From Actinomycetospora chiangmaiensis DSM 45062 (GTDB lineage: Bacteria > Actinomycetota > Actinomycetes > Mycobacteriales > Pseudonocardiaceae), in assembly GCF_000379625.1 (NCBI RefSeq), contig NZ_KB903225.1, forward strand, positions 1 to 64,000: a stretch of 64,000 nt of DNA, given 5' to 3'. Of the stretch, positions 6,468-19,495 are shown in pieces. The translations under genes were made by a program, and so were the position numbers. Within the stretch, counting starts at the first letter, position 1; each line of letters opens with the position of its first letter. Below the pieces are notes generated by a model that saw nothing but the letters and a program-made list of their open reading frames with translations, was not told the origin of the DNA and made no database searches.

Positions 6468-7175
6468 ATGGGTGTCCACGCGGATCCGAACGCGCCGCGC
6501 GTCCTGGTCGTCGAGGACGAGGCGACCGTGCGCGAGTCGATCGTCCGGGCGCTGAACCGCTCGGGCCACGTCGCCCTCGGGCTTCCCGACGGCGGGTCGC
6601 TCGAGGAGACGCTCGACGGCTTCCGGCCCGATCTCGTGATCCTCGACGTGATGCTGCCGGGCCGCGACGGGTTCGACCTGCTCACGGTCGTCCGGGACCG
6701 GACCGACGCGGGCATCGTCATGGTCACCGCGCGCGACGCCCTCGACGACCGGCTCCGCGGCCTCGACACCGGGGCGGACGACTACGTCGTCAAGCCGTTC
6801 CTGCTCGAGGAGCTCGCGAGCCGGGTCCGGGCCGTGCTGCGGCGCCGGGGCCGGACCCCGACCGCGCTCGTCGTCGGGGACCTGGTCATCGACGAGGAGG
6901 CCGGCGTCGCGACCCGCGCGGGCGTGCCGCTCAAGCTGACGGCGACCGAGCTGCGGTTGCTGCGCTACCTCGCCGAGCAGCGGGGCCGCACGGTGAGCAA
7001 GAACCAGATCCTCACGCAGGTGTGGGGCTACGACGCCTACGACCCGAACCTGGTCGAGGTCCACCTGTCCGCGCTGCGCCGCAAGCTCGAGGCGCACGGG
7101 CCGCGCATCGTCCACACCAGCCGCGGCCTGGGCTACACACTGCGGCCCACCGACGCGGCGGGAGCGCCGTCGTGA
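6468..7175 (+). CDS. OmpR/PhoB-family response regulator
   Basis: 235 residues from the ATG at 6468; upstream in-frame codons run through the CTTCAG array, so longer starts are unlikely. The receiver domain (about 10-125) has the acidic pocket VVEDE, phospho-acceptor Asp60 in VILDVMLPGRDG, Thr87 in MVTARD and Lys109 in VVKPF. The C-terminal winged helix (about 135-230) shows LTATELRLLRYLAEQ, the recognition helix VEVHLSALRRKLE and the closing wing SRGLGYTL. It is first in an operon with its kinase (ATG/TGA-type 4-bp overlaps follow). The signal is unknown; the upstream box array suggests autoregulation. Confidence 0.93.
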   Translation: MGVHADPNAPRVLVVEDEATVRESIVRALNRSGHVALGLPDGGSLEETLDGFRPDLVILDVMLPGRDGFDLLTVVRDRTDAGIVMVTARDALDDRLRGLDTGADDYVVKPFLLEELASRVRAVLRRRGRTPTALVVGDLVIDEEAGVATRAGVPLKLTATELRLLRYLAEQRGRTVSKNQILTQVWGYDAYDPNLVEVHLSALRRKLEAHGPRIVHTSRGLGYTLRPTDAAGAPS

Positions 7176-8668
7176 GGTGGCGTCCGGTGCGTCGCGACCG
7201 CCCCACGGCGGTCCCCGCGCGCTCCCTGCGGTTCCGGGTCACCGCCACGGTCGTCGCGGTCATGGTGGTGACGCTGCTCGTGGCCGGGATCGTCGTGGAC
7301 CTCGTGCTCTCCGCCGCCCTGGAGCGCGACCAGCAGAGCCGGCTGACGGAGCGGGCGCAACGGGTCGACCAGCTGGTCGTCCAGCAGGTGCCGGCCGACG
7401 AGATGGTGGCCCTGCTCGACGGCCAGGGGGTGCGGGCCGTGCGGGTGGCGGCCGGGGGCGCGGTGCTCCAGGGCGTCCCCCAGCCGCCCACCCCGCCCGG
7501 CGGCGGGCCGCCCGGACCGGCCGGTCGCCCGCCCGGCCCGCGCCCGGTGCACGCGGGGCAGGCGCTGATCGTCACGAAGACCCTCCCCGACGGCACGGCC
7601 ATCGTGCTCTCGGCCGACCCCGGCGAGGTCGATGCCGTGGTCTACCGGCTCCGGGGCGTCATGGTCGGGGTGGGGGTGGTCGGGGTCGTGGGCTCGGCCC
7701 TCCTGCTGTTCAGCGGGGTCACCGCCGCGCTGCGCCCGTTGGACGGCATGACCCGGGTGGCGCGCGCCATCACCACCGGCGACCGCGGGCAACGGCTGCG
7801 GCCGGCGAACACCGGCACCGAGATCGGGCGGACCGCCGCCGCGTTCGACGAGATGCTCGACGCCCTGGACGCCGCCCAGGGCCGCTCCGACGAGGCCGCG
7901 CGCCGCGAGCGTGGTGCCGCCGAGGAGGCCCGGCGCTCCGAGGCGACGACTCGCCGCTTCCTCTCCGACGCCGCCCACGAGCTGCGGACGCCCCTGGCCG
8001 GGATGCAGACCCTCGCCGAGACGCTGGTCCGCGACTCCGACGAGGACCGGGAGGTGCGCGAGGAGCTCGCCATCGCCCTCGTCCGCGAGACCTCGCGGGC
8101 CTCGGCGCTCGTCTCGGACATGCTCGACCTCGCCCGCATCGAGGGCGGCCAGGAACTCGACCGGGAGGAGGTCGACCTCGCGCGGCTGGCCCGCGAACAG
8201 GTCGACCACGTCCGCCTGGTGAGCCCCGCGCTCGACCTGCAGATCGAGACCGACGGACCCGTCGTCGCGGCGATCGATGCCCAGAAGGTGCGGCGTGTCC
8301 TGGTCAACCTGCTCGACAACGCCCGACGTCACGTGGGCGCGGATGGAGTGATCAGCGTCGGGGTATCGGCCGACCGAGACGTCGGGGACGGCGGAGAGCC
8401 GAGGGGACGCATCGTGGTGCACAACGACGGCGAGGTCATCGCCGAGGAGGACCGGGACCGGGTCTTCGACCGGCTGGTCCGGCTCGACGAGGCGCGGGCG
8501 GGCGACGCCGGCGGGGCGGGCCTCGGGCTCTCGATCGCGCGGGCGCTCGTCCGTGCCCACGGCGGCGACCTCGTCTACCGCGCCGTGCCGGGCGGGTCGG
8601 ACTTCGTCGTCACGCTGCCGCTCGCGACGTCCGGCGCCGCCGCGGCCGGCCCCGTGGCGCACCGGTGA
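7172..8668 (+). CDS. Sensor histidine kinase
   Basis: 498 residues from a GTG that overlaps the regulator's stop (GTGA). Two membrane helices (about 24-48 and 161-186) bracket an extracytoplasmic sensor of about 110 residues containing a Pro/Gly stretch (QPPTPPGGGPPGPAG). HAMP follows at about 187-240, then dimerisation helices with phospho-acceptor His269 in SDAAHELRTPLAG, and the ATPase with N box NLLDNARRH, a relaxed G1 (HNDGE instead of DxGxG) and G2 GLGLSIARALV. The sensor's proline-rich loop resembles the stalk of the divergent membrane protein. The stop overlaps the next start by 4 bp. Confidence 0.93.
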   Translation: MRWRPVRRDRPTAVPARSLRFRVTATVVAVMVVTLLVAGIVVDLVLSAALERDQQSRLTERAQRVDQLVVQQVPADEMVALLDGQGVRAVRVAAGGAVLQGVPQPPTPPGGGPPGPAGRPPGPRPVHAGQALIVTKTLPDGTAIVLSADPGEVDAVVYRLRGVMVGVGVVGVVGSALLLFSGVTAALRPLDGMTRVARAITTGDRGQRLRPANTGTEIGRTAAAFDEMLDALDAAQGRSDEAARRERGAAEEARRSEATTRRFLSDAAHELRTPLAGMQTLAETLVRDSDEDREVREELAIALVRETSRASALVSDMLDLARIEGGQELDREEVDLARLAREQVDHVRLVSPALDLQIETDGPVVAAIDAQKVRRVLVNLLDNARRHVGADGVISVGVSADRDVGDGGEPRGRIVVHNDGEVIAEEDRDRVFDRLVRLDEARAGDAGGAGLGLSIARALVRAHGGDLVYRAVPGGSDFVVTLPLATSGAAAAGPVAHR

Positions 8669-9828
8669 CCGGGCGGCTGCGGCAGGCCCTGCGGCCGCGC
8701 CGCGTGGTGCTCGGCCTGGTCGTCGTGGTGGCCGTGGTGATCGCGGCCAAGGTCCTGCTCGACAACAGCGACGAGCTGCTCGGCGCCGCCGACACCCTCA
8801 CCCACCTCGAATGGGGATGGGTGGCGGTCGCGCTCGTCCTCGAGGTGATGTCGTACGCGACCCGTGGCGTGGGGCAGAGCATCCTGCTGCGGCAGGCACC
8901 GGGGGTCGTGCCGGACGGCCGGGGGCGCCCCGGCTACGTCGTCCTCGGCGCCGGGACGCTCGCGGGCGACGCGGCCGCGTACTGCCTGCCGTTCGGGTTC
9001 GCGGCCTCCGGCGTGGTGATGTTCCGCGTGCTCCGCCGCCGGTCGGTCGACCCGACGGTCGCCGGGTGGATGTTCGCGGTGTCGACGCTGCTCTACCTGG
9101 GCGCGATGTGCGTGCTGACCATCGGCGCGGTCGAGATCGCCGGCGGCGAGGACCCCGTCCCGGGGCTCCAGGAGGCGGCCCTCATCCTCATCGTCGTCCT
9201 CGGCGTCCTCGGGCTGGGCTTCGTCGCCCTGCGGCGCGGCCCCCTGGTGGGCCTCGCCCGCCGGCTGCGGATCCGGCGCCGCGCCGCGTCGGTGAGGTCG
9301 GCCCGACGCGACGCCGCGCTGGAGGCCGGCGCCCTCCCCACCCCCGGGCCGGTCGGCCGCGTGCTGCTGAACCTGCGCCGCCGCACGCGCGAGCACGTCG
9401 GCGTGCTCCGGACGATCCGCGTGCCCCCCGCCCTGCTCACGGCCGCCTTCGCGATGATGCTGCTGAGCTGGCTGTCCGACATCGCAGTGCTGGGGATCGC
9501 CTACGAGTCGGTCGGCTCCTCCCCGCCGTGGCTCGGGCTGCTCCTCGCCTACTGTGCCGGGCAGGTCGCCGCCGCCATGCCGGTGACCCCGGGCGGGCTC
9601 GGCGTCGTCGAGGGCAGCCTGACCCTGGCCCTCGTGGCGTTCGGCAGTTCGGAGAACACCTCGCTGGCCGCCGTGCTGCTCTACCGGCTCATCGCCTACT
9701 GGATGTGCATCCCGCTCGGGGCCCTCGCGTGGCTGGGGCTGCGGGCGGCCGTGCGCCGTCGGACGGGGACTCCCCCCGTCTCGACCGCGGTCGCGTCCGA
9801 CCCCGACTCCCCGGCGGTGGCGGCGTGA
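8665..9828 (+). CDS. UPF0104/LPG-synthase-type integral membrane protein
   Basis: 387 residues from a GTG overlapping the kinase stop. It has about eight predicted membrane helices and the family's marker loops: YCLPFGFAASGVVMFRVLRRRSVD near 105-130, and GQVAAAMPVTPGGLGVVEGSLTLAL near 305, where PxxPGGLGxxE is diagnostic. The family is related to the flippase half of MprF and to AglD; members act in lipid or glycolipid translocation. There is no C-terminal synthase domain, so a pure membrane (flippase-like) role is likely. Its position inside a two-component operon suggests an envelope-stress or cell-surface function. Confidence 0.85.
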   Translation: MTGRLRQALRPRRVVLGLVVVVAVVIAAKVLLDNSDELLGAADTLTHLEWGWVAVALVLEVMSYATRGVGQSILLRQAPGVVPDGRGRPGYVVLGAGTLAGDAAAYCLPFGFAASGVVMFRVLRRRSVDPTVAGWMFAVSTLLYLGAMCVLTIGAVEIAGGEDPVPGLQEAALILIVVLGVLGLGFVALRRGPLVGLARRLRIRRRAASVRSARRDAALEAGALPTPGPVGRVLLNLRRRTREHVGVLRTIRVPPALLTAAFAMMLLSWLSDIAVLGIAYESVGSSPPWLGLLLAYCAGQVAAAMPVTPGGLGVVEGSLTLALVAFGSSENTSLAAVLLYRLIAYWMCIPLGALAWLGLRAAVRRRTGTPPVSTAVASDPDSPAVAA

Positions 9829-10340
9829 CCGCGCGGCGCCGCCGGGCGGCCGCCCTCCTCGGCGGGGTCGTCCTCGCGTCCTGCCTGACGGGGTGCGCCG
9901 CCCCGGGCGGCGGCGCGGGCGCGCACAACGCCGTCGGGAAGTGCGCGTCGGTCATCGGTCTCTCCCGCACCGCCGTGCCGGGCGGCGGCGCCCCGGAGAT
10001 CATCCGGCCGGTGACGGTGGAGGACATCGGCGCGCTGACGCTGGCCGCGGGGGTGCCGACGACGCTGCCGACGACGAAGGCCCCGAAGCCCGCCGGCCCG
10101 CCGCCGGTCCCGCCGCCCACCGACGCCGCGGGCGACCCGATCCCGCGCTACTGCCTCGTCGTCGTGCCGGGGCGCTTCGCGCCGAACTCGGTCCCCGGGG
10201 CCGTCCCCGCCGGCGCGGGCGGCGACCACGTGCTGGTGGTGGCGGCGACCCGGCCGGCGCAGGTCGAGCGGCTGCTGATCACGACGGGGGTGCCGTCGAT
10301 CGCGACGCCGCACCCGTGGTGGCAGTTCTGGAAGAGCTGA
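9825..10340 (+). CDS. Putative lipoprotein, unknown function
   Basis: 171 residues, last gene of the four-gene overlapping operon. The N-terminus is a lipoprotein signal: basic start (TARRRR), hydrophobic core and lipobox LTGC, so the mature protein would begin near Cys24 and be membrane-tethered. A Pro/Thr-rich linker (TTLPTTKAPKPAGPPPVPPP) separates two small segments that each hold one further Cys, possibly a disulphide. The end is PHPWWQFWKS. I do not recognise the domain. Co-transcription with the kinase suggests a sensor accessory or a surface factor controlled by it. Confidence 0.7.
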   Translation: MTARRRRAAALLGGVVLASCLTGCAAPGGGAGAHNAVGKCASVIGLSRTAVPGGGAPEIIRPVTVEDIGALTLAAGVPTTLPTTKAPKPAGPPPVPPPTDAAGDPIPRYCLVVVPGRFAPNSVPGAVPAGAGGDHVLVVAATRPAQVERLLITTGVPSIATPHPWWQFWKS

Positions 10341-10452
10341 GCGCGCTGGGCCGGGTGCGCTCGTCCGATTGGTTGAAACGGGTCCTTCCCCCGATCGTGC
10401 CCGGGTCGTTACCCTTCGGTGACGTCCAATCAGATTGCCTTGCGGGGGTGGG

Positions 10453-11145
10453 ATGGACCGGGTCGGGGAGTACACCTGGAGCCCCGGCGTCGACCACTGG
10501 GAGTGGAACGACACCATGTTCCACCTGCTCGGCTACGTCCCCGGCCAGGTCCGGCCCAGCCGCGCGCTGGTCATCGCCCACAAGCACCCGGCCGACCGGG
10601 CGCAGGTGGAGCACGTCCTGGCCGACGCCTGCAGCAACCGACTGGCGTACACCCACCGGCACCGCATCGTGTCCGTGACCGGCGAGATCCACGAGGTGGG
10701 CGCGATCGGCTACCCCGTCGCCTCCCGGTCACCGAGCCTGCTGCTGCACGGCTACCTCGTGCACCTCGCGACCCACCAGCCCTCGCCGTCGACGGCCCGC
10801 GCCGCCGGCGCCTCGGCCCGGCCACCGCAGGCACCGTCCCCGGCGAGCGCGGCCGGTCCCCCGACGGTGCCGTTCACGATCCCCGACCCGACCACCGCCG
10901 CGCCCTGGACCCTCGACCCGGGCCGGGAGCACGACCGGTTCCTGGTGCGGGCCGTCGACGTCCTCGCCGACGCGACCGAGCTCCCGCACGGGGCCGCGGC
11001 CGCGCTGGTGGCCCACCTCGCGAACACCGGCGCCCTGCCGCTCATCTCGGTGGCGGAGCGCATCCTCGCCATGCGCCTGGACCCCGACGTCGACGGGCTC
11101 GGCGGCCTGCTCGCCGCGGTGGTCCGCCCGGACCCGACCGACTGA
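10453..11145 (+). CDS. PAS-domain protein with ANTAR-like C-terminal helices
   Basis: 230 residues from the ATG at 10453, with GGGGGTGGG just upstream; a TTG at 10435 is a less likely start. Residues about 3-105 form a PAS fold (DRVGEYTWSPGVDHWEWND, MFHLLGYVPGQV, then the VTGEIHEVGAIGYPV strand), typical of PAS_3-type sensors. An Ala/Pro-rich linker follows. Residues about 150-215 are helical (FLVRAVDVLADAT, AAALVAHLANTGALPLISVAERILAM), resembling the ANTAR RNA-binding domain often fused to PAS in this group, but the match is degenerate and the tail may only mimic it. A free-standing signalling protein; target unknown. Confidence 0.65.
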   Translation: MDRVGEYTWSPGVDHWEWNDTMFHLLGYVPGQVRPSRALVIAHKHPADRAQVEHVLADACSNRLAYTHRHRIVSVTGEIHEVGAIGYPVASRSPSLLLHGYLVHLATHQPSPSTARAAGASARPPQAPSPASAAGPPTVPFTIPDPTTAAPWTLDPGREHDRFLVRAVDVLADATELPHGAAAALVAHLANTGALPLISVAERILAMRLDPDVDGLGGLLAAVVRPDPTD

Positions 11146-11224
11146 TCGGTGACGTGGGTCGCATTCGATCACGCCGACGTTTAGCGTGACCGGGAGCACA
11201 GTCGTTCCCGCTCGGAGGCCCGAG

Positions 11225-13147
11225 ATGCGTGCACCGCGCCACGTCCGCCTGACCACCCCGCTCGTCCGCGACGGCGGCGTCCTGCGGGAGGCGAGCTGGG
11301 AGGAGGCGCTCGACCGGGCCGCCGCCGGCTTCCGCGGCGTGCCGGGCGACGCGTACGGGATGTTCTCCTGCTCGAAGGCCACCAACGAGCTGAACTTCAT
11401 GGCCCAGAAGTTCGCGCGGGTGGTGATGGGGTCCAACAACGTGGACTCCTGCAACCGCACTTGACACGCTCCCAGCGTCGTCGGTCTGACGGCGGTGTTC
11501 GGCGCCGGTGGCGGCACCAGCGCCTACTCCGAGGTCGAGGACACCGACCTCGTCCTGCTCTGGGGCTCCAACGCGCGCGAGACCCACCCGATCTACTTCC
11601 ACCACGTCCTGACGGGTCTGCGCCGCGGTGCCGCGATGTACGTCGTCGACCCGCGGCGGACCTCGACGGCCCGGTGGGCCCGGGGCCACCTGCCGCTCGA
11701 CGTCGGGACCGACATCGCGCTCGCCCACGGGATGGGACGCGCCATCCTCGACGCCGGGCTGGAGAACCGCGCCTTCATCGAGCGCGCCACCACCGGGTTC
11801 GACGAGTACGTGCGCGCGGTGGAGCCGTGGACCCTGGAGAAGACCGCCGAGGTCACGGGCGTCGACGCCGGGCTGGTCCGCGAGACCGCGCTGGCCTATG
11901 CGTGCGCCGACCGCGCCCAACTGTGCTGGACGCTCGGCATCACCGAGCACCACAACGCCGTCGACAACGTGCGCGCCCTGATCGACCTCGCCCTGCTCAC
12001 CGGCCACGTCGGGCGCTGGGGCTCGGGGCTCGTCCCGTTGCGCGGGCAGAACAACGTGCAGGGCGGCGGCGACATGGGCGCCATCCCGAACCGGCTGCCC
12101 GGCGGGTACGACGTCACCGACGACACGCACCGCGCCCGCTTCGACGCCGCCTGGGGCAGCTCGATCCCGGCGGCCCGGGGTCTGCACCTCTCCCAGATGT
12201 TCGAGGCGATGGAGCGCCGGGAGCTGCGGGCGGTCTACGTCGTCGGCGAGAACCCGGCCGAGTCCGAGGCCGACGTCGCGCACGCCCGCGCCCTGCTCTC
12301 CGGGCTCGACCACCTCGTCGTGCAGGACATCTTCCGCACCGCGACCGCCGAGCTCGCCGACGTGGTGCTGCCCAGCTGCGCCGACTGGTGCGAGTACGAG
12401 GGCACCGTCACCTCGTCGGAACGACGGGTCCAGCGGGTGCGCAAGGCGATCGAGCCGCCCGGGCTGGCCCGCCCCGACACCGAGATCCTGTGCGATCTGG
12501 CCCGCCGGCTCGGGCACGACTGGGGCACGCCCTCGCCGGAGGAGGTCTGGGACGAGCTGCGTTCGCTCTCCCTCGACTGGCACGCCGGGATGTCCTACGC
12601 CCGCCTCGAGGCCGAGGGCGGCCTGCAGTGGCCGTGCCCCTCGCTCGACCACCCGGGCACCCCGACGATGCACACCCGGCTCTGGGAGCGCGACCCCGCG
12701 CGGCGCGGGAAGCCCGCGCCGTTCGCCCCGGTGGTGCACGCCGGGCCGCTCGACGAGCTGTCCGCGGAGTTCCCGCTGCGGCTCACCACGGTCCGCCGCC
12801 TCGACTCCTACAACTCCGGCGTCCAGACCGGCGGCTACACCTCGCCGCTGCGGCGCGACGAGGCGCTCTGCCTGGACGCGAGCGACGGGCGGGCCCTCGG
12901 GGTGCACGACGGCGAGCGGGTGCGGGTGGTCTCGCGCCGCGGCGCGGTCGAGGCGCCCGTCCGCTTCGACGACGCCGCCCGCCCCGGGCTCGCCTTCATC
13001 ACGCCGCACTTCTCCGAGCAGGTCGACGTCAACCTCATCACCAACGAGGCGTGGGACCCGCAGTCGGGGACCTCGGAGTTCAAGGCGACCGCGATCCGCA
13101 TCGAGAAGCTCGCCGTCGGGGCCCGCGTCCCGGTGGCCGGCGCGTAG
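11225..13147 (+). CDS. fdhF: Selenocysteine-containing formate dehydrogenase, catalytic core (split alpha subunit)
   Basis: 640 residues if the in-frame TGA at 11462-11464 is read as selenocysteine (residue 80). The frame is continuous on both sides, and the context NVDSCNRT-U-HAPSVVGL matches the active site of Sec-type formate dehydrogenases, where Sec ligates molybdenum and the next His aids catalysis. The protein oxidises formate to CO2 at a bis-MGD centre. It starts at MRAPRHVRLTTPLVR and so lacks the N-terminal [4Fe-4S] domain found in whole alpha subunits; that domain is in the gene at 15000. The C-terminal molydopterin-binding domain is complete (GVQTGGYTS...NEAWDPQSG). The start has GGAGG 6 bp upstream. 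Without Sec insertion it would stop at 79 residues. sel genes are not in this window. Confidence 0.9.
11462..11494 (+). promoter_or_regulatory. UGA (Sec) codon with bacterial SECIS hairpin
   Basis: TGA at 11462-11464 is followed by an apical hairpin: 7 pairs (11476-11482 with 11488-11494, one G-U) closing a GGTCT loop at 11483-11487. As recalled, the loop sequence and the 18-nt distance from the TGA to GGTCT equal those of the E. coli fdhF SECIS, which binds SelB. The element lies inside the coding region, as bacterial SECIS elements do. Confidence 0.85.
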
Positions 13148-13158
13148 GAGGTCTCCGC

Positions 13159-14999
<1,841 letters not shown>

Positions 15000-15003
<4 letters not shown>

Positions 15004-15950
15004 CCGTGGTCGACCTCGGCACCATCCGGCGGCTGGTGAGCGTCACCGTCGACGACGTCGAGCACCGCGTGCCCGAGGGCGCCACGATCATGGACGTCCT
15101 CGACGACGCCGGCGCCGACACCCCGCGGCTCTGCCAGGCCCCCAACCTCACGCCCGTCAACGCCTGCCGGGTGTGCGTGGTGGAGGTCGAGGGCTCGCGC
15201 CCGCTCGTGCCGTCCTGCGCGCGGAAGGTCGAGGACGGCATGGTCGTCCGCACCGACACCGAGCGCGTGGCGCACAGCCGGAAAATGGTGCTGGAACTGC
15301 TCGCGAGCGCCAACGACCTGTCGGAGGCCGGCGACGACGTCGCCCGCTGGCAGATCGAGTACGGCGCCGACCCCGAGCGCTACGGCCCGCCCGGACCACC
15401 CGCCGCCGCGGGTGAGCGCGGCAACCGGCACCCCGGGCACCACGGCCTTCCCGACGGCGAGACGCGGGCGACGGTCGCGCAGCCGGTCACCGTCGACAAC
15501 GACCTCTACGTGCGCGACTACGCCCGCTGCATCCTCTGCTACAAGTGCGTCGAGGCGTGCGGCACCGACGCGCAGAACACCTTCGCGATCGCCGTCGCCG
15601 GCCGCGGGTTCGACGCGACGATCTCCACGGAGTTCGCCGTCCCCCTCCCCGACTCCGCCTGCGTGTACTGCGGCAACTGCATCGGCGTCTGCCCGACCGG
15701 CGCGCTGAAGTCGGTGGCCGAGCACGAACGGCGCGAGGCCGGGACCTGGGATCCCGAGGGCGAGACGGTGACGTCGACGATCTGCTCGTTCTGCGGGGTC
15801 GGCTGCACCCTCGAGCTGCACGTCCAGGACAACACCATCGTCAACGTGACCTCCCCGCACGACCACGCCGTGACCCACGGGCACCTGTGCATCAAGGGCC
15901 GGTTCGGGTTCCAGCATGTGCAGAATGTGGCTCCGCCAGGTGAGCACTAA
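15000..15950 (+). CDS. Iron-sulfur N-terminal half of formate dehydrogenase alpha subunit (NuoG-like), separate gene
   Basis: 316 residues. In order: a plant-type [2Fe-2S] domain (Cys45, Cys56, Cys59, Cys73); a helical segment where the NuoG His/Cys [4Fe-4S] site would lie but no Cys is present; two [4Fe-4S] ferredoxin motifs (CILCYKCVEAC, CVYCGNCIGVCPTGAL); and the molybdopterin-enzyme [4Fe-4S] motif (CSFCGVGC then LCIKGRFGF). It ends within a few residues of the point where a whole FdhA would continue into RLTTPLVR, which is where the gene at 11225 starts. The two polypeptides therefore together make one alpha subunit. The TAA stop sits in the arm of a palindromic terminator. Confidence 0.88.
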
Positions 15951-15979
15951 CTGGGCCTATAGCCCCACGTAGTGCTCAC
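15940..15979. terminator. GTGAGCACTA palindromic terminator element
   Basis: Arms GTGAGCACTA (15940-15949) and TAGTGCTCAC (15970-15979) around an imperfect inner stem centred on CTATAG. It carries the TAA stop of the preceding gene. It belongs to the same family as the elements at 19485 and 58067. Confidence 0.7.
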
Positions 15980-16041
15980 GAGCGAGCGCAGCGAGCACAC
16001 TCGCGCGGGTTGAGATCCCGCCGCACGAGGCATCCCCGCCG

Positions 16042-18231
16042 GTGCGCGGAGACGACAGGCTGACGCGGGGACGTGGGCGCTACACCGCCGACCTGCACGT
16101 CGACGGGTGCCTCGAGGCCGCGTTCGTCCGCAGCCCGGTCCCGCACGCGGACCTGCTCGGGATCGACACGACCGCCGCCCGGGACATGCCGGGCGTCGCG
16201 GCGGTCCTCACCGCCGACGACCTCACCGACGTCGGCGACGTCCCCACCATGTTCGGCACCGACGACTCCCCGCCGTGGCGCCCGCTAGCCGCCGACCGGG
16301 TGCGGCACGAGGGCGAGGCGGTCGCGATGGTGGTCGCCGACGACCGGTACCGCGCCGAGGACGCCGCCGCCGCGGTCCGCCTCGACCTCCGCCGCCGCCC
16401 CGGCCACGCCGCGCCCGGCCGCGCGGGGCGCACCGACCGCCTCTACCCGGACCACGACGACCTCGCCCTCGAGAAGGAGTTCGGCCCGCCGGTCGCCGAC
16501 GCGACCTGGACGAACGCCCACATCGTCATCGACTCCCGCTACCGCCAGCAGCTCCTCGCGCCCACCTCGCTCGAGGCGCGCGCGATCCTCGTGGAGCCCG
16601 GCGCCTTACTCACCGTCCACTGCTCCCACCAGTACCCCCACGGCCTGCGCACCGGGATCGCGGGCGCCTTCGGGCTCGCCGAGGACGACGTGCGGGTGAT
16701 CGTCCCCGACGCCGGCGGCGCCTTCGGGTCGAAGAGCCCGACCTACCCCGAGTACCTCGCCGTCGTCGCGGCGGCGCGGCGACTGCAGCGGCCCGTCCGC
16801 TGGATCGAGGACCGGACGGAGGCGCTCACGTCGGCGAGCCGCGGTCGCGGCCAGGACCAGCACGTCCGCCTCGCGGCCGACGCCGACGGGCGCATCCTCG
16901 CGATCGACCTGCAGGTCGACGCCGACATCGGCGCCCACCCGCTCGGGGCGGCCCTCCCCGGCCAGACCGCCCTCGCCGCGTCCGAGGCGTACGCCGTCGG
17001 AGAGGTGCACGCGACGTTCCGCTCCTGGTTCACGACGACGGCTCCCACCTACGCCTACCGCGGGGCCGGTCGGCCGGAGGCGGCCTACGCGGTCGAGCGG
17101 GCGGTCGACGAGCTGGCCGCGGCGCTGCACCTGGACCCCGCCGAGCTGCGGCGCCGGAACTTCGTCCGCGAGTTCCCCTACGACACCCCGACCGGCCGCC
17201 GCTACGACAGCGGGGACTACGCCGCCTGCCTCGACCGGTGCCTCGAGCTGCTCGAACCCGACCGGTGGCGCGGCGCCCGGGAGCGGCCGACCGGTGTCGG
17301 CATCGCCTGCTACGTCGAGCGCAGCGGCGGCGAGCCCGGGATCCTCGAGGAGTACGGGTCCGTCACCGTGGACCCGTCGGGCTTCACCGCCCGGGTCGGC
17401 ACCTCGTCGACCGGCCAGCCCCACCACACCGTGTTCGCGCAGCTCGTCGCCGACCGGCTCGGCGTCCCCGCCGACACCGTGGACCTCGTCGAGGGCGACA
17501 CCGGCGAGGTCCCCGAGGGTCACGGCACGTTCGCCAGCCGCAGCACGCAGATGGGCGGGGCCGCTCTCGCGGGGGCGGCCGACGCCCTGGTCGACGAGGC
17601 CCGTGCGCAGGCCGCGGACCGCTGGGGCCTCACCGCCGACGACGTCGCCTGGGACAAGGGCGTGCTCCGCGCCGGCACCCGCGAGCTGCCGGTGGCCGAG
17701 CTCGCGCCGCTGCACGCCGAGCACCGCTTCACCTCCCCGCCCGCGTTCCCGTACGGCAGCTACGGGGCCGTCGTCGAGATCGACCCGGAGCTCGGCGCCG
17801 TGCACCTGCTGCGGCTGGTCGCCGTCGACGACTACGGCACGGTCCTCGACCACACCGCCACGCACGGCCAGACCCTCGGCTCGATCGCGCAGGGCCTCGG
17901 GCAGGTGCTCATCGAGGGCGTCGTGCTCGACGACGAGGGCGCGACGGTCATGCCCGACGGCCTCCTCGACTACCTGCTGCCCACGGCCGCCGAGATGCCG
18001 CGCGACCTGCGCGTCGACGAGACCGCGGTGCCCGCGCCCGACAACCCGTTGGGCGTCAAGGGCGCCGGCGAGGCGGGCTGCATCGGCGTGCCCCCCGCCG
18101 TCGTGAACGCAGTCGCGGACGCGATCCGGCCGCTCGGTGGCGACCCCGCCCGACTTCGGATGCCGCTGACGCCGCAGGTGGTCTGGGAGGCGCTCGGGGG
18201 CGAGCGCAGCGACGGGGAGGGACGCGGGTGA
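16042..18231 (+). CDS. Molybdenum hydroxylase large subunit (xanthine dehydrogenase/CoxL family)
   Basis: 729 residues, molybdopterin-cytosine-dinucleotide-binding large subunit. It opens with RGDDRLTRGRGRYTADL, close to the usual family start; an in-frame TAG at 15970 limits extension, so the GTG at 16042 is used although no clear ribosome site precedes it. Diagnostic motifs: GGAFGSKSP, the loop AYRGAGRPEA (form-II type; true CO dehydrogenases have AYRCSFR), QMGG, and the catalytic Glu in GVKGAGEAGCIG near the C-terminus. It hydroxylates an aldehyde, purine or N-heterocycle; the substrate is not evident. It is followed with 4-bp overlap by the FAD subunit, giving an L-M-S order. Confidence 0.9.
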   Translation: MRGDDRLTRGRGRYTADLHVDGCLEAAFVRSPVPHADLLGIDTTAARDMPGVAAVLTADDLTDVGDVPTMFGTDDSPPWRPLAADRVRHEGEAVAMVVADDRYRAEDAAAAVRLDLRRRPGHAAPGRAGRTDRLYPDHDDLALEKEFGPPVADATWTNAHIVIDSRYRQQLLAPTSLEARAILVEPGALLTVHCSHQYPHGLRTGIAGAFGLAEDDVRVIVPDAGGAFGSKSPTYPEYLAVVAAARRLQRPVRWIEDRTEALTSASRGRGQDQHVRLAADADGRILAIDLQVDADIGAHPLGAALPGQTALAASEAYAVGEVHATFRSWFTTTAPTYAYRGAGRPEAAYAVERAVDELAAALHLDPAELRRRNFVREFPYDTPTGRRYDSGDYAACLDRCLELLEPDRWRGARERPTGVGIACYVERSGGEPGILEEYGSVTVDPSGFTARVGTSSTGQPHHTVFAQLVADRLGVPADTVDLVEGDTGEVPEGHGTFASRSTQMGGAALAGAADALVDEARAQAADRWGLTADDVAWDKGVLRAGTRELPVAELAPLHAEHRFTSPPAFPYGSYGAVVEIDPELGAVHLLRLVAVDDYGTVLDHTATHGQTLGSIAQGLGQVLIEGVVLDDEGATVMPDGLLDYLLPTAAEMPRDLRVDETAVPAPDNPLGVKGAGEAGCIGVPPAVVNAVADAIRPLGGDPARLRMPLTPQVVWEALGGERSDGEGRG

Positions 18232-19043
18232 AGCCGGCGCCGTTCGAGTACGCCACCCCGACGACGCTCGACGAGGCGATCGCGCTGCTCGCCACCCCCG
18301 GCGCGCGCGTGATCGCGGGCGGGCAGAGCCTCCTGCAGGACCTCCGGTGGCGCCGGACGTCGGCGTCGGTGCTGGTCGATCTCGCACGGATCGACGAGCT
18401 CCGGGGCGTGCACGACGACGGCGCCCGGGTGCGGATCGGCGCGCGGGTGCGCCACGTCGACCTGGAGCGCGGGGCGGTCGGTGGGCCGCTCGGCCGGCTG
18501 CTCGCCGCGACCGCCGGTTGGATCGCGCACCCGCCGGTGCGCAGCCGCGGGACGATGGTCGGGAGCCTGTGCTTCGCGCACCCGTCGTCGGAGTGGTGCG
18601 GGCTGGCCGCCGGGCTCGACGCGGCGGTGGAGCTCGTCTCCGTGCGCGGCCGCCGCGAGGTCCCGGTCGCGGAGTTCCTGCGCGACTCCTTCGCCACCAC
18701 CGCCGCCGCCGACGAGCTCGCGACCGCCGTCCTCGTCCCGACCCTCCCCGACGGCACCCGCGTCGGGGTCGTGGAGTCCCGCCGCACGCACGCCAGCTAC
18801 GCCCACGTCGCCGCCGTCGCCGCCCGCGTTCCCGACGGCGGGTCGCGGCTCGGCCTGGCGGGCGCCGCGCCGACCGGCACCCGGGCGCACGCCGCCGAGG
18901 CCGCGCTCGCCCGGGGCGAGGACCCCGGCGCCGCCGCGGCGGAGCACGACGCCGACCCGCGCGAGCACCCGCACGCGTCGATCCCCTACACCCGGCACGT
19001 CGCGGGCGTGCTCGTCCGCCGCGCGCTGCAGGAGGCCGCCTGA
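18228..19043 (+). CDS. Molybdenum hydroxylase FAD-binding subunit (CoxM-like)
   Basis: 271 residues, GTG start overlapping the large-subunit stop. This VAO-fold flavoprotein carries electrons from the iron-sulfur subunit to the final acceptor. FAD motifs: ARVIAGGQSLLQDL (pyrophosphate loop), and HPPVRSRGTMVGSLCFAHPSSEW (the second FAD loop, normally RNxGTxGG-like; here RSRGTMVGS). The C-terminal CO_deh_flav domain begins near VVESRRTHASYAHVAAV. The stop overlaps the next start by one base (TGATG). Confidence 0.88.
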   Translation: MKPAPFEYATPTTLDEAIALLATPGARVIAGGQSLLQDLRWRRTSASVLVDLARIDELRGVHDDGARVRIGARVRHVDLERGAVGGPLGRLLAATAGWIAHPPVRSRGTMVGSLCFAHPSSEWCGLAAGLDAAVELVSVRGRREVPVAEFLRDSFATTAAADELATAVLVPTLPDGTRVGVVESRRTHASYAHVAAVAARVPDGGSRLGLAGAAPTGTRAHAAEAALARGEDPGAAAAEHDADPREHPHASIPYTRHVAGVLVRRALQEAA

Positions 19044-19495
19044 TGGAACTCGACGTCAACGGCGCGCGCCACGAGGTGACCGCCGAACCGCGCCGCGCCC
19101 TCGCCGACGTGCTCCGCGACGACCTCGGCCTGACCGGCACCCACCTGGGCTGCGAGCACGGCGTGTGCGGCACGTGCACGGTGCTGCTCGACGGCGAGCC
19201 GGTGCGCTCGTGCCTGGTGCTCGCGGTGCAGGCGGTGGGTCACGAGGTCCGCACCGTCGAGGGCCTCGCCGAGGACGACCCGCTGCCGGGCGCGTTCGCC
19301 GAGCACCACGCGCTGCAGTGCGGGTTCTGCACGCCGGGCTTCCTCATGCTGCTCCGCGGCGCCCTCGACGAGGACCCGACCGTGGTCGACGACGACGGGC
19401 GCCTCGACGCCCTGCTCGCCTCGAACCTGTGCCGCTGCACCGGCTACGAGGGCATCCGGAACGCCGCGAAGGTGGCTGCGCCTCGTGAGCACTAA
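19043..19495 (+). CDS. Molybdenum hydroxylase [2Fe-2S] subunit (CoxS-like)
   Basis: 150 residues, GGAGG upstream. The first cluster is the plant-type motif in LGCEHGVCGTCTVLLDG plus a later Cys (VRSCLVL); the second is the four-helix cluster in QCGFCTPGFLM and NLCRCTGYEGI. These two clusters relay electrons from molybdenum to FAD. Last gene of the L-M-S operon; its TAA lies inside the left arm of the palindrome at 19485-19524. Confidence 0.92.
   Translation: MELDVNGARHEVTAEPRRALADVLRDDLGLTGTHLGCEHGVCGTCTVLLDGEPVRSCLVLAVQAVGHEVRTVEGLAEDDPLPGAFAEHHALQCGFCTPGFLMLLRGALDEDPTVVDDDGRLDALLASNLCRCTGYEGIRNAAKVAAPREH

Follow-up and report, generated by a model that had tools for sequence, protein, structure and literature searches.

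An in-frame TGA very probably read as selenocysteine in a formate dehydrogenase gene of Actinomycetospora chiangmaiensis DSM 45062, with a catalytic subunit encoded in two parts

At positions 11225-13147 of the window (the whole stretch of DNA that was analysed, 64,000 nucleotides), a gene is best read as encoding the selenocysteine (Sec) part of a molybdenum formate dehydrogenase (FDH) that is cytoplasmic and probably NAD-dependent, and the account as a whole is given a probability of about 0.97. A GGUCU hairpin located 18 nt after the UGA would recruit SelB with Sec-tRNA(Sec), and Sec would be inserted at codon 80 as the active-site metal ligand (Sec80-His81 and Arg273; class I U-H/R-G-Q). 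The N-terminal Fe4S4 domain and ferredoxin-like clusters would come in trans from the cluster's third gene (15000-15950), and electrons would then go to a NuoE-NuoF fusion (13159-15003) and to NAD. Sec coding in this gene set is already published (PMC7176365), and the split of the catalytic subunit is the less familiar feature. The first-pass annotation had interpreted the TGA as a Sec codon and not as the mark of a broken gene, an interpretation that is supported by the machinery of the genome, by conservation of the TGA and by a hairpin present in Sec but not in Cys genes. The features are as follows.

11225..13147, + strand: fdhA3, 640 aa with predicted Sec at 80; Pfam Molybdopterin and Molydop_binding; without the N-terminal Fe4S4 domain
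11462..11464, + strand: TGA, putative Sec80 codon, at the place of Sec140 in E. coli FdhF; relatives have TGA or a Cys codon
11476..11494, + strand: SECIS apical hairpin, 7-bp stem 11476-11482 / 11488-11494, GGUCU loop 11483-11487, 18 nt after the TGA
13159..15003, + strand: fdhB3, 614 aa, NuoE-NuoF fusion (2Fe-2S thioredoxin-like, FMN-binding 51K, NADH_4Fe-4S), GTG start
15000..15950, + strand: fdhC3, 316 aa, N-terminal catalytic-subunit part (Fer2_4, ferredoxin clusters, Molybdop_Fe4S4)

The TGA codon, its frame and its relatives

The open reading frame runs from ATG 11225 to TAG 13145-13147, and its single internal stop is the TGA at codon 80. The frame had been described as continuous around the TGA, in the context NVDSCNRT-TGA-HAPSVVGL and at the Sec/Cys site of FdhF, and these claims hold: there is no second stop in the 640 codons, the context is found in the sequence at exact coordinates, and codon 80 aligns with E. 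coli FdhF Sec140. The FdhF counterparts of His81 and Arg273 are His141 and Arg333, and U80 H81 together with R273 G274 Q275 (FdhF 140, 141 and 333-335) make up the class I formate dehydrogenase active site, defined as C/U-H with R-G-Q (scheme of PMC8808070). Sec at exactly residue 80 is a prediction from the sequence.

The protein was found in 73 of 297 family genomes (E up to 1e-150), and the site is TGA in 35 of these (36 loci read), in a set that includes near-copies (G203 and G221). Among the 38 family genomes without TGA, the 23 that were fetched have TGC (14) or TGT (9), and the other 15 are known from the search alone, with no internal stop reported there. A genome_contigs scan gave TGA in 79 of the best 80 of 466 relative-encoding stretches and TGC in one (Nocardiopsis), a set that is biased toward the query and has some genomes in common with the family collection. 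By title, these 80 belong to Actinobacteria, Acidobacteria, Chloroflexi, Planctomycetota, Deltaproteobacteria, Eremiobacterota and others, mostly metagenome-assembled genomes; named relatives include Actinomycetospora at 85-96% identity. All 24 non-TGA loci read in both collections are TGC or TGT, meaning that an in-frame TGA occurs where homologues have Cys, as in bacterial selenoproteins. A quick LG+G4 tree of 108 proteins separates the 24 Cys rows from the rest by a single branch, whose SH-aLRT of 81 falls short of the starred level. A second Sec was considered for three genomes reported with two TGA codons (G203, G221 and G155) and rejected, the second TGA being at the C-terminal end, and three others (G174, G161 and G186) were reported with one TGA yet have Cys at the site.

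The codon before the TGA (window 11459-11461) is ACT in 17/17 and 30/30 TGA loci, counted in two locus sets with genomes in common, and in 1/23 Cys loci. This bias is a third-position constraint outside the hairpin.

UGA terminates translation when Sec-tRNA is scarce. It could then be proposed that the TGA stops translation on purpose without selenium and ties enzyme level to selenium supply, and polarity is possible because the downstream genes are close and fdhB3 and fdhC3 overlap. However, such a stop would be a consequence of Sec coding and no alternative to it, and nothing in the analysis suggests a function for a 79-aa product, making this an improbable explanation of the codon.

The hairpin after the TGA

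A SECIS-like hairpin with a GGTCT loop had been suggested at first reading, along with a spacing like that of E. coli fdhF. Both suggestions were confirmed, with GGTCT at 11483-11487, 18 nt past the TGA, and GGTCT also at 18 nt in fdhF on NC_000913. A 23-nt piece folds as the hairpin (-10.6 kcal/mol, z -2.43, with 7 of 200 shuffles equally good), and the identical hairpin forms in a 38-nt piece (z -0.78). In a 49-nt piece a different fold is best and there is no excess stability (z 0.17), so folding energy is weak evidence and reliance was placed on cross-species comparison. An Rfam search of the window gave no match.

For this comparison, 126 TGA loci were reduced to 78 distinct 42-mers, and 24 Cys loci to 21. 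GGTCT is present in 78/78 distinct TGA 42-mers compared with 1/21 Cys 42-mers, and a stem of 6 bp or more in 77/78 compared with 0/21, the single exception among the 78 having a stem of only 4 bp (L118). The Gly codon is GGT in all 78 Sec 42-mers and in one of the 21 Cys genes. The second stem pair covaries across the 78 sequences (U-A in 34, U-G in 26, C-G in 18, C-A in 0), and at another locus (L142) C-G is exchanged for G-C at third codon positions of the stem. A GGU-loop hairpin at a fixed distance after the TGA is maintained through compensatory change, as in selenoprotein genes. With random synonymous codons drawn from the gene's own usage, a stem of this length (6 bp or more) arose in 20% of draws on average, and stem and GGT together in 2%. 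In a slid-partner control, a 3-nt slide still gave 70-83% pairing because codons repeat, so the paired fraction says little by itself.

Selenocysteine machinery and the published system

The genome of the window (31 contigs, 5.86 Mb) contains tRNA-Sec at 7079-7170 of contig 12 (70.3 bits, cut-off 47; anticodon tca). Profile searches placed selA (382.9 bits, above cut-off) and selB (245.2 bits, or 265.4 with neighbours in frame; cut-off 242.25) on the same contig, both within 10 kb of tRNA-Sec, and selD on contig 7 (385 bits, above cut-off). The lack of selABD and tRNA-Sec had been named at the outset as a result that would refute Sec coding; all four were found above their cut-offs. Across the family, tRNA-Sec scores above the Rfam cut-off in 35/35 TGA genomes versus 16/38 others (Fisher p 9e-9), and its presence in those 16 indicates a machinery that is independent of this gene. 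Two further TGA-containing molybdopterin oxidoreductases/formate dehydrogenases are encoded on contigs 12 and 16, both with GGTCT 18 nt after the TGA and a GUCCCC/GGGGAC stem unlike that of fdhA3; the first differs from fdhA3 at 13 of 35 positions. On contig 12, positions 7079-16825 hold together tRNA-Sec, Sec FDH1 (1078 aa with the TGA read), FdhB1, FdhC1, a permease-like ORF, selA and selB (L009).

Three Sec FDH systems, FDH1-3, and a bSECISearch analysis have been described in A. chiangmaiensis DSM 45062 (PMC7176365). In that study formate accumulation was almost negligible with selenite, an effect not assignable to FDH3 rather than FDH1, and FdhA3, FdhB3, FdhC3, SelA, SelB and SelD were detected by mass spectrometry/proteomics; its passages on these data report no Sec peptide. 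FdhA3, FdhB3 and FdhC3 were of similar abundance there (0.012, 0.022 and 0.017%; PMC7176365), which fits one complex. The lengths published in PMC7176365 and those in the genome agree in 10 of the 11 cases compared. The FDH3 subunits (640/614/316 aa, compared by length) equal the window genes. FdhA1 1078, FdhA2 1089, FdhB1 362, FdhC1 366, SelA 459, SelB 597 and SelD 334 aa fit ORFs in place, in a fit that allowed any ATG/GTG/TTG start; some of these seven lengths can be found in unrelated frames as well. The permease is 322 aa as published versus 321 aa for the longest ORF at its place in the genome. It had also been expected that an annotation pipeline would call two fragments or a pseudogene, which seems not to be so for this gene, since FdhA3 has an NCBI id and 640 aa in Table 1 of PMC7176365. 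For the remaining two Sec alpha subunits that table gives n.a., and the authors added them. Because two of the three are without a database id there, well-supported Sec coding in this soil actinomycete is a useful annotation check.

Reading of the TGA by a near-cognate Trp or Cys tRNA instead of Sec-tRNA can be discounted almost entirely, given the alignment with FdhF Sec140, the conserved hairpin, tRNA-Sec in every TGA genome (35/35) and the selenite dependence (PMC7176365). A lone in-frame TGA, with Cys in 24 related loci, might also be explained by a nonsense mutation or a sequencing error, leaving a pseudogene or a codon that is really TGC/TGT. However, the same TGA recurs across 35 family genomes (36 loci) and in 79 of the best 80 (of 466) in the other collection, no other stop interrupts the 640 codons, TGA genes retain the loop and stem whereas Cys genes do not, the genome has Sec machinery, and FdhA3 protein was detected (PMC7176365). 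This explanation, to which the chance left is negligible, was rejected on the 35 family genomes with an identical TGA.

A catalytic subunit in two parts, compared with known systems

The first identification, a formate dehydrogenase of the FdhF type, stands for the Sec site and fails for the subunit as a whole, which is not a single chain: the catalytic subunit is of FdsA type and split, and fdhA3 encodes its larger portion. In the alignment to FdsA (PDB 6tg9 chain A), fdhA3 matches residues 307-931 and fdhC3 residues 14-302. Likewise, fdhA3 covers positions 52-672 of TIGR01591 (score 591 versus a cut-off of 666) and fdhC3 positions 1-50. Before the Sec codon, fdhA3 has Cys at 49 and 76 only, and the N-terminal Fe4S4 domain of single-chain FdhF and FdsA is absent from its polypeptide. 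NuoE, NuoF and NuoG-N-terminal modules are all encoded in the cluster, as in FdsABG-like enzymes, with the fdhC3 start overlapping the fdhB3 stop as ATGA. Outside the operon, a PAS-domain protein is encoded immediately upstream (10435-11145), and molybdenum hydroxylase genes, for a large subunit of the xanthine dehydrogenase type and a 2Fe-2S subunit, follow the operon at 16042-19495.

The split was surveyed in 121 loci including the window, some genomes being present twice, and 97 loci had enough downstream DNA (at least 3.2 kb). The order A-B-C is present in 92 of these 97, and every one of the 98 C genes that were found is separated from A by an in-frame stop. The exceptions to the A-B-C order are L066, L067, L145, L155 and L157. 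The C gene of L066 and L067 (genomes G069 and G035) is about 14-16 kb off on the opposite strand of the same contig, and for the TGA-type FdhA of L145, L155 and L157 the third gene was not found in the fetched stretch. At L066 and L067, where a Sec FdhA lacks adjoining B and C, nearby ORFs resemble by eye an MFS transporter and a permease.

It is very probable that this widespread FDH family, with Sec in most of the loci read, has a permanently split catalytic subunit, in which the proximal Fe4S4 domain is carried by a separate HoxU-like protein whose gene lies behind that of the diaphorase; the Mo site and the first cluster would then meet only on assembly. FdhA3 and FdhC3 are predicted to assemble together, and the enzyme would be a natural two-part molybdoenzyme in which to study how a molybdopterin site is assembled beside a cluster on another chain. 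A split subunit is not described in the open-access literature searched (titles and abstract openings; passages of PMC8808070, PMC13397495 and PMC7325909), and PMC7176365 names FdhC3 the gamma subunit, in passages that make no mention of a split.

Among known systems, E. coli FdhF is similar to FdhA3 in its Sec-His/Arg active site and in GGTCT 18 nt after the TGA, with 237 of 618 aligned residues identical. However, FdhF has its own N-terminal Fe4S4 domain (Cys 8, 11, 15 and 42, within the first 60 residues), and the alignment of FdhA3 starts at FdhF residue 61. FdhC3 resembles the HoxU-type subunit found in NAD-reducing hydrogenases in that it is a separate iron-sulphur protein like the NuoG N-terminus, and it matches the HoxU model with E 5.3e-36 (124 bits, below the cut-off of 333); it matches group A6 FeFe hydrogenase (E 3.8e-45) and NuoG (1.1e-38) models better, both also below cut-off. 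Unlike HoxU, FdhC3 has an extra Molybdop_Fe4S4 domain at its C-terminus. Rhodobacter capsulatus FdsABG (PDB 6tg9/6tga), which is soluble and NAD-dependent, and the tungsten formate dehydrogenase of PDB 7vw6 have catalytic and electron-transfer domains in common with FDH3. Their catalytic subunit is one chain, whereas that of FDH3 is two chains with Sec, and its N-terminal part is encoded last.
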